Source of the DNA: Planctomycetota bacterium
GTDB taxonomy: Bacteria; Planctomycetota; MHYJ01; JACPRB01
Assembly (NCBI GenBank): GCA_016200125.1
Contig: JACQFK010000013.1
Location: 1-7,309 of the forward strand
Reading direction: 5' to 3'
DNA: 7,309 bases
The notes beneath the pieces are model-generated. The model saw only the letters and a list, made by a program, of their open reading frames with translations, made no database searches and was not told where the DNA came from. Positions within the stretch are counted from its first letter, which is position 1; each line of letters begins with the position of its first letter. This document shows positions 2,670 to 7,309 of the stretch, piece by piece. The translations under genes were made by a program, and so were the position numbers.

Positions 2670-3425
2670 TCAGATCCCGGCGAGGTTCGGCACGATCTTC
2701 ACGTAGCCGTGCTCGCGGGCGATCACGTCGAGCGGTGTGGAGGCGAGCTCGTCGACGACCGGCTCGGCCGCCCAGTTGAGCGTCAGGTCCACCGACTTCA
2801 GGTACTTCCCGCAGGAGTCGCAGGCCTCGACGCGCATCCAGGGGATCTCCTGCGCCGTATAGCGCGGCAGCTTCTCGGGCTTCTCCTCGCGGCAGTGGGG
2901 ACAGAGCACGCGGGCGAAGTCCCACTCCCGGGAGCATCGCGCGCAGATCAGGGAACGCCGCAGCGTTTCGGCGCTCTTATCCTCGCGCAGGACGCTGACC
3001 TGCGGTCGGTCGCCGCAATCGGGACAACGGGGAGAAGTTCCTCCCGGCACGGGCTCGCCGTCCCGATGCGGAGGGACGCTCGTCATGACGGCCGGCTGCA
3101 GGAACACCCGGGGGAAGAACTCGAGAAGGGGATCCTCGATGGTCTCGCCGTCGCGGTAGCGGCGGAACAGGTCCTCCAGGTCGGGCGCTGATTGCGCGAG
3201 CCGGGCGAGAGGCGGAGGACCCTCCCGGGCGACCAACTCCAGGAGGTTCGGCAGGAGCGCGAGCGGGGGCTCCTGGCCCCTGCGCGTGGGATCGGCAAGC
3301 CGCAACAGGATTTCCCTCTGGAAGCTCCAGAGGTGGCGGTGAAATCGGAGCAACTCCGCGGAGAACGGCCACTCCTTCTCGAGGGTCTCGGCGCGGCGGA
3401 TGCGCTTCTCGAAGACGTCGGGCAT
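2670..3425 (-). CDS. fdhE: formate dehydrogenase accessory protein FdhE
   Basis: This 251-aa protein has the four CxxC pairs typical of FdhE: C134/C137 (CPDCG), C161/C164 (CARC), C175/C178 (CPHC) and C202/C205 (CDSCGKYLKSVDL). The conserved tail VVDELASTPLD (223-233) follows. FdhE is a cytoplasmic rubredoxin-like iron protein that acts on the alpha subunit of Tat-exported formate dehydrogenases during maturation. It is needed for activity but is not part of the final enzyme. The E. coli protein is about 309 aa, so the N-terminal helical part is shorter here. It is the last gene of the formate dehydrogenase operon: its ATG lies 20 bases after the stop of the beta-gamma gene. No Shine-Dalgarno sequence is visible in that gap, so translation is probably coupled to the gene upstream. 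The family call is firm; the start is the first ATG and the only convincing one. Confidence 0.95.
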   Translation of the reverse strand: MPDVFEKRIRRAETLEKEWPFSAELLRFHRHLWSFQREILLRLADPTRRGQEPPLALLPNLLELVAREGPPPLARLAQSAPDLEDLFRRYRDGETIEDPLLEFFPRVFLQPAVMTSVPPHRDGEPVPGGTSPRCPDCGDRPQVSVLREDKSAETLRRSLICARCSREWDFARVLCPHCREEKPEKLPRYTAQEIPWMRVEACDSCGKYLKSVDLTLNWAAEPVVDELASTPLDVIAREHGYVKIVPNLAGI

Positions 3426-3445: not shown

Positions 3446-4822
3446 TCAGGCCCCGGGCTTCTTCAACTGTTCCTCAGCCAAGGCGGCATGGTGATGCCTT
3501 GCCCATGCCTCGCTGACCGTGCCCTCGGTCATCGCCCGCAGCGCGCCCTGGGTGATGATCACCGCCATGTGGATGTGCATGACGATCGAGAGGATCGCGC
3601 CCACCGCCGCCGCGGAGTGGATCACGATCGCCCAGAGCCGCAGGTCGCGGCCGAACTCGGCGGGGAACCAGATCGGGATGCCGCTGAGCAACAGCACGAG
3701 GCCCAGCGCCACCTGCGTCAGGAAGAGCAGCTTCTGGCCCGCGTTGAAGCGGCCCGTCGGCGGAATCCCCTCGTCGCGGCCCGCGAGATAGTCGCGCATC
3801 TTCTTCAGCCAGACGCGGTCGTCCGGCGTGAGGCGCAGGTCCTTGAACCACTTGATGAACTGGACCAGCGTCGCGGCGATGAAGACGACGCCGATGATCG
3901 GGTGCCAGGCCCGCACCACCTGGCCGCCGCCGAAGACCTTGAGCAGCCAGTCGAGCTTCGGCGTGAAGAGCCCGAGGCCCGTCAGCCCGAGATAGATGAA
4001 GGTGAACGCGACCGTCCAGTGGACGATCCGCTCGAAGAGCGAGTAGCGCCTGATCCGCTTCTCCGGTTTCGGCGCCGGCTCGGCGTGGGCGACCTTCTCG
4101 CGCCGCGGCCCGGCCACCAGGTAGTGCAGCGCGGCGGCCGCCAGCGAGGCGCCGAACGCGAGGAAGCCCTCCTCCACCACCTGGTGCGAGCGCTTCTCGG
4201 CCCGCGCCTTCATCTCCTTCTTGGTGCCGAACTCGAGGCAGCCCGTCGGGCAGGCCTTGACGCAGGCCGGGCCGAGCCCGTTGGAGACGCGGTCGGAGCA
4301 CATCGTGCACTTGAAGACGCGCTGCGAGGTCGCGTCGAACTTCGGGATGTTGAAGGGGCAGCCCGTCATGCAGTAGCCGCAGCCGATGCAGCTTTCCTGC
4401 TGGAAGTCGACGATGCCGTTCGTGTACTGGACGATCGCCCCCTCCGCCGGGCAGGCGATCATGCAGCCCGGCTCCGAGCAGTGCATGCACATGTCCTTGC
4501 GCATGAGCATCATGATGCCGGGCGCGTCGGCGGCCGCTTCCATCGGGCGGCGCTGCGGATCGACCGTGATCTCGTTGAACTTGATCAGGTTCCAGTACGA
4601 CGGCGTCATGTCCGGGATCGTCTGGAACGAGTTCATCATCAGGCGCAGCCCGGTCTCGGGCTCGATCTTCAGGTCGTTCCACTCCACGCAGGCCACCTCG
4701 CAGGCCTTGCAGCCGATGCAGGTGGTCGTGTCGATGAGCATGCAGACCTGGTCGTCCTCGCGGACGGTGGTCCGCACGCCGGTGGCCGAGACGTTCTTGA
4801 CCTCGAGCGCGCCGCCCTTCAC
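3446..4822 (-). CDS. fdnHI: formate dehydrogenase beta-gamma fusion (FdnH iron-sulfur subunit joined to FdnI cytochrome b)
   Basis: This is a single 458-aa frame. Residues ~26-205 are the FdnH/FdoH ferredoxin-like domain with four [4Fe-4S] cysteine sets: C35/38/41/45, C112/115/120/124, C145/148/151/155 and C172/175/187/191. Residues ~218-237 form the single membrane helix of a beta subunit (GFLAFGASLA...HYLVAGP). After a charged, proline-rich linker (~238-258), residues ~260-458 are the FdnI-type cytochrome b: four helices (~264-284, 305-324, 366-385, 396-423), candidate heme ligands H268, H307, H402 and H416, and an FdnI-like tail (EGTVSEAWARHHH). It should carry electrons from alpha through the clusters and two b hemes to the quinone. 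E. coli makes these as two proteins of about 294 and 217 aa. The start is GTG at 4822, which overlaps the alpha stop codon as GTGA and points to coupled translation; the frame stays open upstream only as a shadow of alpha. No stop or start-like break separates the two halves. Confidence 0.93.
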   Translation of the reverse strand: MKGGALEVKNVSATGVRTTVREDDQVCMLIDTTTCIGCKACEVACVEWNDLKIEPETGLRLMMNSFQTIPDMTPSYWNLIKFNEITVDPQRRPMEAAADAPGIMMLMRKDMCMHCSEPGCMIACPAEGAIVQYTNGIVDFQQESCIGCGYCMTGCPFNIPKFDATSQRVFKCTMCSDRVSNGLGPACVKACPTGCLEFGTKKEMKARAEKRSHQVVEEGFLAFGASLAAAALHYLVAGPRREKVAHAEPAPKPEKRIRRYSLFERIVHWTVAFTFIYLGLTGLGLFTPKLDWLLKVFGGGQVVRAWHPIIGVVFIAATLVQFIKWFKDLRLTPDDRVWLKKMRDYLAGRDEGIPPTGRFNAGQKLLFLTQVALGLVLLLSGIPIWFPAEFGRDLRLWAIVIHSAAAVGAILSIVMHIHMAVIITQGALRAMTEGTVSEAWARHHHAALAEEQLKKPGA

Positions 4823-7308
4823 GCCGGCCCCGCTTTCTCGAGCTTGACGAGGAAGGTCTTGTACTCGGGCGTGTGGGAATTCGGATCGACCACGCTCGGC
4901 GTCAGCAGGTTCGCCATCGGCCCCCGGCCCACGCCCTTTCCGGCGCGGCCCGTGAAGCCCCAGTGGATCGGGATCGCGACCTGCCACACGGTCCTGCCCG
5001 TGACCTTCATGGCGCGGAGGCGGCGCGTGACGAGCGCGCGCCCTTCGATCGCGCCGCGCGGCGTCGACAGGCGGACCCGGTCCTCGTTCGCGATGCCCCG
5101 CTCCTTCGCGAGCCCTTCCGGGATCTCCACGAAGAACTCGGGCTGCAGCGCCGCGGTCGGGGCGATGTGCTTGGTCCAGTAGTGGAAGTGCTCCGTCAGC
5201 CGGAACGTGGTCGCGACGATGTCGTACTCCTTGGGGTCGCCGAACGCGGGATCCAGGGCGCTCCTGAAGACATGCGCCACGGGATTGGACGAGTTCGCCG
5301 GATGGAGGGGGTTGTCGACCGGATGCTCCTGCGCCTCGTAGTGCTCGGGGAAGGGGCCGTCGGCGAAATCGGGCGCCCAGAGCTTGGCGACGCCCTCCGG
5401 GAGCATGATGAAGGCGTCGAAGGTCCCGGGCTTCGCGTCGGGCTTCATGTCGGGGGTGTCGCCCACCCACTTGTCGCCGTCCCAGGCGATGCCCGCGCGG
5501 GTCGGATCCCAGGGCTTCCCCTCGGCGTCGGCGTTCGCCCGGTTGTAGAGCACGCGGCGGTTGGCCGGCCAGTTCCAGGCCCAGCCTTCGTAGCGGCCGA
5601 GGCCCGAGGGGTCGCGCGGATCGCGCCGCGCCATCATATTGCCGGCTTCGGTGAAGCTGCCGCAGTAGAGCCAGTTGCCGCTCGCCGTCGTGCCGTCGGC
5701 CTTGAGCTCGCCGAAACCGGAGAGCTGCTTCCCCGTCGCGAGGTCGCGGCCGTTGATCTCCTTCGCGATCTCCTCGAGCGAGGGCTCGCCGGGATTCTTG
5801 TAGGACCAGTCGAGGTTGAGGATCGACTCCGCGCCGGGCCCGCCTTCCTTCGCGTAGAGCTCGCGGACGCGCAGGAAGAGGCGCGCCAGGATCTCCTGGT
5901 CCGTGAGCGCCTCACCCGGCGGCTCGGCCGCCTTGTGCTTCCACTGCCCCCAGCGCGACGAATTGGTGAAGGATCCGTCCTTCTCCGCGAAGATCGCCGC
6001 GGGCAGGAGGAAGACCTCGGTCTGCGGCGGCTCCTTGGCGACCTTCCAGAACTGGGCGGTCTCGGTTTCGAAGGCCTCCGTGATGACGCACCACTCGAGC
6101 TTGGCGAGCGCGGCGATCATCTTCTCGGTGTTGGGGCCGTTCGCGACGGGGTTCATGCCGAAGTCGATGAAGCCCTTGATCGAGCCGGCGTACATGCGGT
6201 CGAAGAGGTAGACCCAGGAGTAGTTGTCGTCGATCTTGGGGAGCCAGTGGAAGCCCCACTCATTCTCCTTCGTGGCGTTGCGGCCGTACATCGCCTTGAG
6301 GAGCGAGACGGCGAACTTGGGCGTGTGGCCCCAGTAGTTCATCGACGTCGGCGAAAGGGGCTTCGGGGTGATCCGCTCGAGGTACTTGTCGAAGGCGGTG
6401 TCGGAGGGCTTCGGCATCGCGAGGTAGCCGGGGAGCGCGTGGTAGGCGACCCCGTGGTCGGTGCCGCCCTGGATGTTCGCGTGGCCGCGGAGCGCGTTCA
6501 CGCCGCCGCCCGTGCGGCCGATGTTGCCGAGCAGCAGCTGGAGGATGGCGGCCGCCCGGATGATCTGGACGCTCGTCGAGTGGTGGGTCCAGCCGAGCGC
6601 GTACATGATCGTGCCCGCGCGGTCCGCGGTGCCGGTCGACGTCACGATCTCCGCGGCCTTGAGGAAGTCCTCCTTCGTGCAGCCGCAGATGTTCGCCACC
6701 GCTTCGGGGGTGTAGCGCGAATAGTGCTTCTTCAGGTGCTGGAAGACGCAGTTCGGATCGTCGAGCGACGCCGCCCGCTTCGCGAAGCCCTTCTCGTCGA
6801 GCGAGTACTTCCACTTCGACTTGTCATACTTCTTCGTCGCCGCGTCGAAGCCGCCGAAGAGCCCGTCGGCTCCGAGCTCGGAGCCGGGCTCGAGGAGGAA
6901 GAGGGCGTTGGTGTGGAGCTTGACGTACTCCTCGTGGATCCGCCTGTTCTCGACGGCGTGATGGATCAGGCCGCCGAGGAAGGCGATGTCCGTCCCGGCG
7001 CGAAGGGGGCAGTAGACGTCGGCGACGGCCGAGGTGCGGTTGAAGCGCGGGTCGACCGAGACCAGCTTCGCGCGCCGCTTCTTCTTGGCTTCAATCACCC
7101 ACTTGAACCCGCAGGGATGGTTCTCGGCGGGGTTGCCGCCCATGGCGAGGACGACGTCCGTGTTGCGGATGTCGGTCCATCCGTTGGTCATGGAGCCGCG
7201 TCCGAAAGTGGGGGCCAGACTGGCCACCGTGGGGCCGTGTCATATCCGCGACTGCTGCTCGAGGTGGGCGACGGACCAGGCACGCGCGACCTTCTGGAAG
7301 AGCCAGTT
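4819..7308 (-). CDS. fdnG: formate dehydrogenase catalytic alpha subunit, selenocysteine-containing (5' partial)
   Basis: The 829 visible residues cover the protein from just before the active site to the C-terminus; E. coli FdnG is about 1015 aa. The Tat signal peptide and N-terminal [4Fe-4S] motif lie beyond the right edge. The frame continues from 7308 through an in-frame TGA at 7240-7242 read as selenocysteine, giving SRI-Sec-HGPTVASLAPTFGRG, which matches the FdnG active site; the His after Sec is the conserved catalytic His. Further FdnG features are MGGNPAENHP, VDPRFNRTSAVAD, GGGVNALRGHANIQG (with the conserved active-site Arg), WDPTRAGIAW, RLTEHFHYWTKH and, near the end, IPIHWGF and HTPEYKTFLVKLEKA. 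The enzyme oxidises formate to CO2 at a Mo or W bis-pyranopterin cofactor and should face the periplasm. GTG at 7227, 13 bases past the TGA, is only an apparent start. The stop overlaps the next gene by four bases. FdnG and FdoG cannot be told apart here. Confidence 0.96.
7207..7239 (-). promoter_or_regulatory. bacterial SECIS hairpin for selenocysteine insertion
   Basis: Starting 18 bases after the UGA is the five-base loop AGTCT (7221-7217), closed by GGCC (7225-7222) and GGCC (7216-7213). GT (7227-7226) can pair with AC (7209-7208) across a CCC bulge. The loop carries the GU (7220-7219) that SelB recognises, at the same distance from the UGA as in E. coli fdhF and fdnG as I recall them. 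The hairpin lies inside the coding sequence, as bacterial SECIS elements do. Confidence 0.85.
7240..7242 (-). other. selenocysteine UGA codon
   Basis: TGA lies in frame between ATA and CAC. The flanking translation fits the FdnG family on both sides: upstream LFQKVARAW and QQSRI, downstream HGPTVASLAP. The position is that of Sec196 of E. coli FdnG. A sequencing error is unlikely because a SECIS-like hairpin follows at the standard distance. Decoding needs SelA, SelB, SelD and tRNA-Sec (selC), none of which are in this window. Confidence 0.93.
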
Positions 7309-7309
7309 G

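Follow-up and report, generated by a model that had tools for sequence, protein, structure and literature searches.

An in-frame UGA predicted to encode selenocysteine in a formate dehydrogenase-N alpha subunit, beside a fused beta-gamma subunit, on a contig from an uncultured, probably planctomycete group

The closest described system is formate dehydrogenase-N of Escherichia coli (structure 1kqf), in which the catalytic subunit FdnG carries a modified residue, selenocysteine, and in which the beta and gamma subunits, FdnH and FdnI, are separate polypeptides. The end of FdnH and the start of FdnI both lie in the cytoplasm. In the E. coli SECIS element the UGA is separated from the stem by 11 nt. 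Gene finders commonly cut selenoproteins short. Selenocysteine-containing formate dehydrogenases in bacteria are dealt with in PMC1794560. The open-access literature was searched for selenocysteine together with formate dehydrogenase and Planctomycetota, and nothing was found there.

The window, by which is meant the whole stretch of DNA that was analysed (7,309 nt), carries genes for an enzyme of this type on its minus strand. The preferred reading, to which a probability of about 97% is given, is that the subunit encoded by the alpha gene is the catalytic one of a membrane-bound and quinone-linked formate dehydrogenase-N that faces the periplasm, and that it carries selenocysteine at UGA 7242-7240, placed there by means of a SECIS element and SelB. 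Selenocysteine insertion, the identity of the metal, the direction of catalysis and the location of the enzyme are what we infer from sequence, and the probable planctomycete origin is read from the names of relatives alone. A SECIS hairpin just 3' of the UGA would recruit SelB and Sec-tRNA(Sec), the ribosome would insert selenocysteine at 7242-7240, and this residue would ligate the metal (Mo or W) of the bis-pterin cofactor. Oxidation of formate at alpha would release electrons, which would pass through the iron-sulfur clusters of beta and the cytochrome b of gamma to the quinone pool. The enzyme type, the way in which the codon is recoded and the misannotation that goes with them are all of known kinds.

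The alpha subunit and its in-frame UGA

The alpha gene (4819..7309, minus strand) was assigned to formate dehydrogenase-N alpha of the FdnG/FdhG type using TIGR01553, a phmmer match to 1kqf_A and the translation; its N-terminal part is lost at the contig end, the window being an entire contig record. When UGA 7242-7240 is translated as selenocysteine, the minus-strand frame 7308-4819 comprises 829 codons, has no other internal stop, and ends at TGA 4821-4819. The mechanically called ORF begins at GTG 7227, runs for 802 codons and is in frame with TGA 7242-7240 on the minus strand. The original prediction held that the frame continues through this TGA with FdnG-like sequence on both sides, and both the open frame and the alignment to 1kqf_A bear it out. 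Between the UGA and the contig edge 22 codons are open and FdnG-like, with neither the stop nor the frame break that would have counted against recoding.

In a phmmer search against solved structures, residues 3-826 of alpha matched residues 176-1015 of 1kqf_A (E. coli FdnG) with an E value of 2.5e-281. Residue 23 of the query, encoded by the UGA, was aligned to the non-standard residue X of that chain, such that the modified residue (Sec) of the E. coli enzyme and the UGA stand at the same place. The next structure matches were chains named as selenocysteine-containing formate dehydrogenases, e.g. 9qm0_A. The score against NCBIfam TIGR01553 (formate dehydrogenase-N alpha) was 1124.6 bits, above the equivalog cut-off of 814.2. 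At the DNA level, the 116-base Sec region gave no similarity match in E. coli genomes.

Species genomes were scanned for relatives, and the best 80 of 590 confirmed loci (L001-L080, from Acidobacteria and other phyla; 50-63% identical) were used for comparison. The UGA of the contig alpha is shared by these formate dehydrogenases: the Sec codon was TGA in 79/79 loci with the codon in view, all of them Sec forms and none a Cys form, and the 80th locus (L069) stops short of it. Upstream, CxYCxVxC was present in 74/79 relatives (146-148 residues before Sec in 73 of them and 104 in L031), and RRx[FL] was found 140-205 residues before Sec in 73/79. Both motifs were missing at L014, L017, L050, L053 and L077, and the twin arginine only at L046; the contig ends first in four of these six cases, and a stop intervenes in the other two (L050 and L077).

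A sample of 392 genomes was drawn from the phylum of L001 (Planctomycetota by title), and three of them matched the beta-gamma protein at E <= 1e-80. In these Planctomycetota formate dehydrogenases (L097, L098 and L099) the alpha subunits are 77.6%, 79.3% and 64.7% identical to that of the contig, respectively, and TGA occupies the same codon in 3/3. The upstream Tat motifs are RRSFLK, RRSFLK and RREFLK, and CPYCSVSC and CPKGA are present as well. It had been proposed that the metal ligand at this position (7240..7242, minus strand) is selenocysteine and not cysteine. The position of the UGA on the modified residue of the FdnG structure, the TGA in every scorable relative and the SECIS_3 match described below uphold a putative selenocysteine as ligand of Mo or W.

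The rival that survives best, although still very improbable, is a pseudogene or an artefact, in which the UGA either truly ends translation or is a misread codon of a gene that in fact encodes Cys. The sequence comes from one contig only, and a 54-residue gap in the beta part and an odd kinase end, both described in the last section, suggest an imperfect assembly. Against this stand the TGA at the same codon in 79/79 relatives and in L097-L099, the constraint on the SECIS element, and a frame of 829 codons interrupted by no other stop.

The SECIS element and its conservation

Rfam SECIS_3 (RF01989) matched the minus strand at 7245-7187 (69.4 bits, gathering score 63, E 3.9e-15, model positions 1-59 of 59). 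The match is full length, but two model pairs (four positions) are non-standard in the contig copy. The same model scored 78.8-82 bits in L097-L099. The other three Rfam matches listed (E up to 5) all fell far under their gathering scores. The element contains an apical hairpin (7211..7228, minus strand), in which seven base pairs enclose the loop GUC (7220-7218), U 7226 is bulged out and AGT 7221-7219 is a Ser codon. Spacing from the UGA is 11 nt to the apical stem, the same as in E. coli, and 19 nt to the GUC loop. A GU-loop hairpin had been predicted 18 bases after the UGA; the hairpin is present, and the figure fits the loop but not the stem.

Folding of 7200-7245, which had been put forward as a check on the hairpin, did not favour it: 153/200 shuffled sequences folded equally well (z +0.75). 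The energies of 7194-7242 (z +1.22) and 7204-7239 (z -0.10) likewise gave no support relative to shuffles, although the latter interval does fold to the expected stem. Because single-sequence folding energy gives no support, the evidence for a SECIS element comes from the covariance model and from comparing relatives. With the RF01989 score above gathering and the comparative results that follow, the prediction of a bacterial SECIS element 3' of the UGA stands.

Starting at the UGA, 48 nt were aligned without gaps in 80 sequences, 71 of them distinct. Invariant columns across the 80 sequences include the UGA, the bulged U17 and A22-G23-U24. In the 71 distinct sequences 88.3% of the cells of the apical helix were paired. 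Cells changed on both sides numbered 45, located at three pairs, as compared with 13.5 +/- 2.6 in shuffles and <=25 with slid partners; the covariation score was 0.261 as compared with 0.067 in shuffles and at most 0.142 with slid partners. Two measures of the apical helix were not clearly above shuffles, namely the number of pairs changed on both sides (3, with a shuffle mean of 2.8, reached by 375/500 shuffles) and the number of pair types, which was only slightly higher (73/500 shuffles reached the count). For the whole structure including the lower stem, 77.4% of cells were paired, 47 cells were changed on both sides and the score was 0.141, each value being reached by 0/500 shuffles; the four pairs changed on both sides were reached by 365/500 and the 13 pair types by 24/500. 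These comparisons call for caution: sequences that are related to one another may score above shuffles of this kind. Pairing of the lower stem is poor in relatives, holding in 68.9% of cells overall and in 4/71 distinct sequences for columns 5-45; for apical pair 16-31 it holds in 37/71.

Codon choice was examined in the same region. The loop Ser codon is AGT in 79/79 relatives, while AGT makes up 6.5% (194/2,991) of their other downstream Ser codons. In the contig alpha the SECIS codon is the sole AGT among 34 Ser codons after Sec. When the region was resampled synonymously with the gene's own usage (200,000 draws), all seven apical pairs were retained in 2.5% of draws, and all seven pairs together with the GU loop and the bulged U in 0.4%.

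These counts bear on a second rival, judged about half as probable as the first, which holds that the SECIS match arises only from conservation of the peptide HGPTVASLAPTFGRG, the RNA itself having no function. The peptide is indeed conserved, the folding energy is no better than that of shuffles, conservation of the lower stem is poor, and of the five pairing measures two do not clearly exceed shuffles. Three findings stand against it: the loop Ser is written AGT in 79/79 relatives, as compared with 6.5% of Ser codons elsewhere; synonymous resampling keeps the complete hairpin, its GU loop and its bulged U included, in 0.4% of draws; and 45 cells, belonging to three pairs of the apical helix, are changed on both sides, where shuffles gave 13.5 and slid partners <=25. 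Least credible of all is a genome-wide reassignment of UGA (e.g. to Trp or Gly), in favour of which nothing was found, given a single in-frame UGA in 829 alpha codons, a UGA that ends the same frame at 4821-4819, the location of the internal UGA on the modified residue of FdnG and the presence of the SECIS element. Genome-wide reassignment, a pseudogene and peptide-only conservation were all rejected on the evidence given for each, and selenocysteine insertion at UGA 7242-7240 is the reading carried forward.

Selenium machinery and the annotation of relatives

The three genomes with L097-L099 (G215, G295 and G335) were searched for the selenocysteine machinery, and above cut-off SelB was found in 3/3, SelA in 2/3, SelD in 3/3 and tRNA-Sec in 3/3. 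In G295 the tRNA-Sec match scored only 49 bits, and SelA was a fragment lying where a contig begins, with a score under the cut-off. The machinery was also searched in 15 genomes taken from the best-80 loci, with SelB above cut-off in 14/15, SelA in 15/15, SelD in 13/15 and tRNA-Sec in 13/15. The corresponding counts in control genomes were 2/14, 1/14, 2/14 and 5/14. With 5/14 controls passing, specificity is lowest for the cut-off used for tRNA-Sec, and the weaker tRNA-Sec matches may be other tRNAs. One in-frame TGA was seen in 11 of the 13 above-cut-off SelD matches (G003-G006, G008-G013 and G015), and for this reason the selenophosphate synthetase SelD is itself probably a selenoprotein in those relatives. 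As a separate observation, the groundwater contig of L001, titled Planctomycetota, carries an Rfam DUF3800-IX RNA match (70.7 bits) at 21270-21334 on its minus strand.

Database relatives of the 802-codon ORF were retrieved, 120 being listed of 7,999 scored. All 120 (663-828 residues) start after Sec. The search took proteins of up to 1.75x the query length, a limit that left room for full-length entries. Start sites among the 120 were at MTNG in 82, at (V/M)ASLA in 32 and elsewhere in six; the MTNG start corresponds to an ATG 12 codons past GTG 7227. The original prediction that automatic annotation drops the selenocysteine and the N-terminus agrees with all 120 listed relatives; the usual false start, on the other hand, is this later ATG and not the GTG at 7227. 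The best listed alpha relatives (P0122-P0126) are 88-91% identical, with P0122 at 91%, and P0131, 80% identical, bears the name of a Planctomycetota bacterium.

The fused beta-gamma subunit and the rest of the window

Immediately downstream of alpha, the UGA stop and the GTG start of the next ORF overlap as GTGA (4819..4822, minus strand), an arrangement which suggests that the two genes may be translationally coupled. The downstream ORF (3446..4822, minus strand; start GTG 4822) is one open frame of 458 aa, comprising in order an FdnH-like four-cluster ferredoxin domain (beta), a hydrophobic helix, and an FdnI-like cytochrome b556 (gamma). Its halves match 1kqf_B and 1kqf_C. The gamma half scored 159.4 bits against TIGR01583, over the cut-off of 115.85, and the beta half 250 bits against TIGR01582, under the cut-off of 334.7. 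Further along, an FdhE-like formate dehydrogenase accessory protein (2670..3425, minus strand) was identified by PF24860/PF24859 above cut-off; against TIGR01562 it scored 67.6 bits, under the cut-off of 187.65.

The contig differs from E. coli formate dehydrogenase-N, with its separate FdnH and FdnI, in having one beta-gamma polypeptide. It differs in the same way from the loci of Acidobacteria and other phyla, whereas L097-L099 are fused as in the contig. Both halves could be located (E <= 1e-6) at 71 of the 80 best loci (out of 590), and beta and gamma shared one open frame in none of these (0/71): they were in different frames in 67, and in the same frame with at least one stop between them in four. 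In the other nine loci one or both halves were missing. A database search with the beta-gamma protein found 7,058 relatives, and 103/119 of those listed besides the contig's own carry short marks of both halves, in a search where a fused query favours fused matches. This pattern undercounts, because P0039, P0051, P0064 and P0068-P0071 have the Pfam families of both halves. Among the matches listed, several fused relatives are named Planctomycetota and one Myxococcales. No description of a fused formate dehydrogenase-N beta-gamma subunit was found in the open-access literature searched, which is a small part of the whole and not proof of absence.

The fusion is compatible with the known topology of FdnH and FdnI. 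Helix counts from a simple hydropathy scan were uneven among four fused proteins. We entertain, with the odds somewhat against it, that fused beta-gamma is a lineage trait in which a signal-less, folded, cluster-loaded N-terminal ferredoxin would ride the Tat pathway with alpha, the C-terminal cytochrome b helices then being inserted into the membrane. In dual Sec-Tat proteins, within the part of PMC5449189 that deals with them, helices precede the cofactor domain; in fused beta-gamma, by contrast, the folded Tat domain comes first and several helices follow. From this opposite domain order we infer a question for Tat transport and membrane insertion.

Two oddities were found in the contig. 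At 4163/4162 a stretch of 54 residues (YDPxGVGGT...VLHHAD) is missing from the beta part without any shift of frame. The stretch follows the cluster domain, reaches up to the membrane helix and is present in 13/13 aligned relatives, and its absence is a further difference from E. coli formate dehydrogenase-N (1kqf). A pattern made from it occurs in 96/103 fused proteins among the matches listed, and the Pfam family Form-deh_trans, present in P0003 and P0004, is absent from the contig beta part. At the left end (1 to about 215, minus strand), a Ser/Thr kinase ORF turns to P-type ATPase (HAD) sequence at about 165-215. All four aligned relatives (4/4) differ at this junction, and PF00702 appears in none of the other 119 Pfam lists, some of them cut short; the junction may be a chimeric join in a short, similar hydrophobic stretch. 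The gap and the kinase end could each be genuine or could come from faulty assembly; they leave untouched the UGA, which has the support of the relatives. On the plus strand, 1794-2582 encodes a protein in which MshE-type cyclic-di-GMP motif repeats (NF053729) are accompanied by zinc-ribbon-like CxxC pairs, and the kinase N-terminus shares the MshE-type motif.

The fused beta-gamma subunit would provide a natural test case for the integration of a Tat passenger with a membrane domain of several helices when one chain bears both. The alpha gene is a clean example of a selenoprotein shortened by automatic annotation, and its predicted recoding points to selenium use by the respiratory formate dehydrogenase of a group that is uncultured and probably planctomycete.
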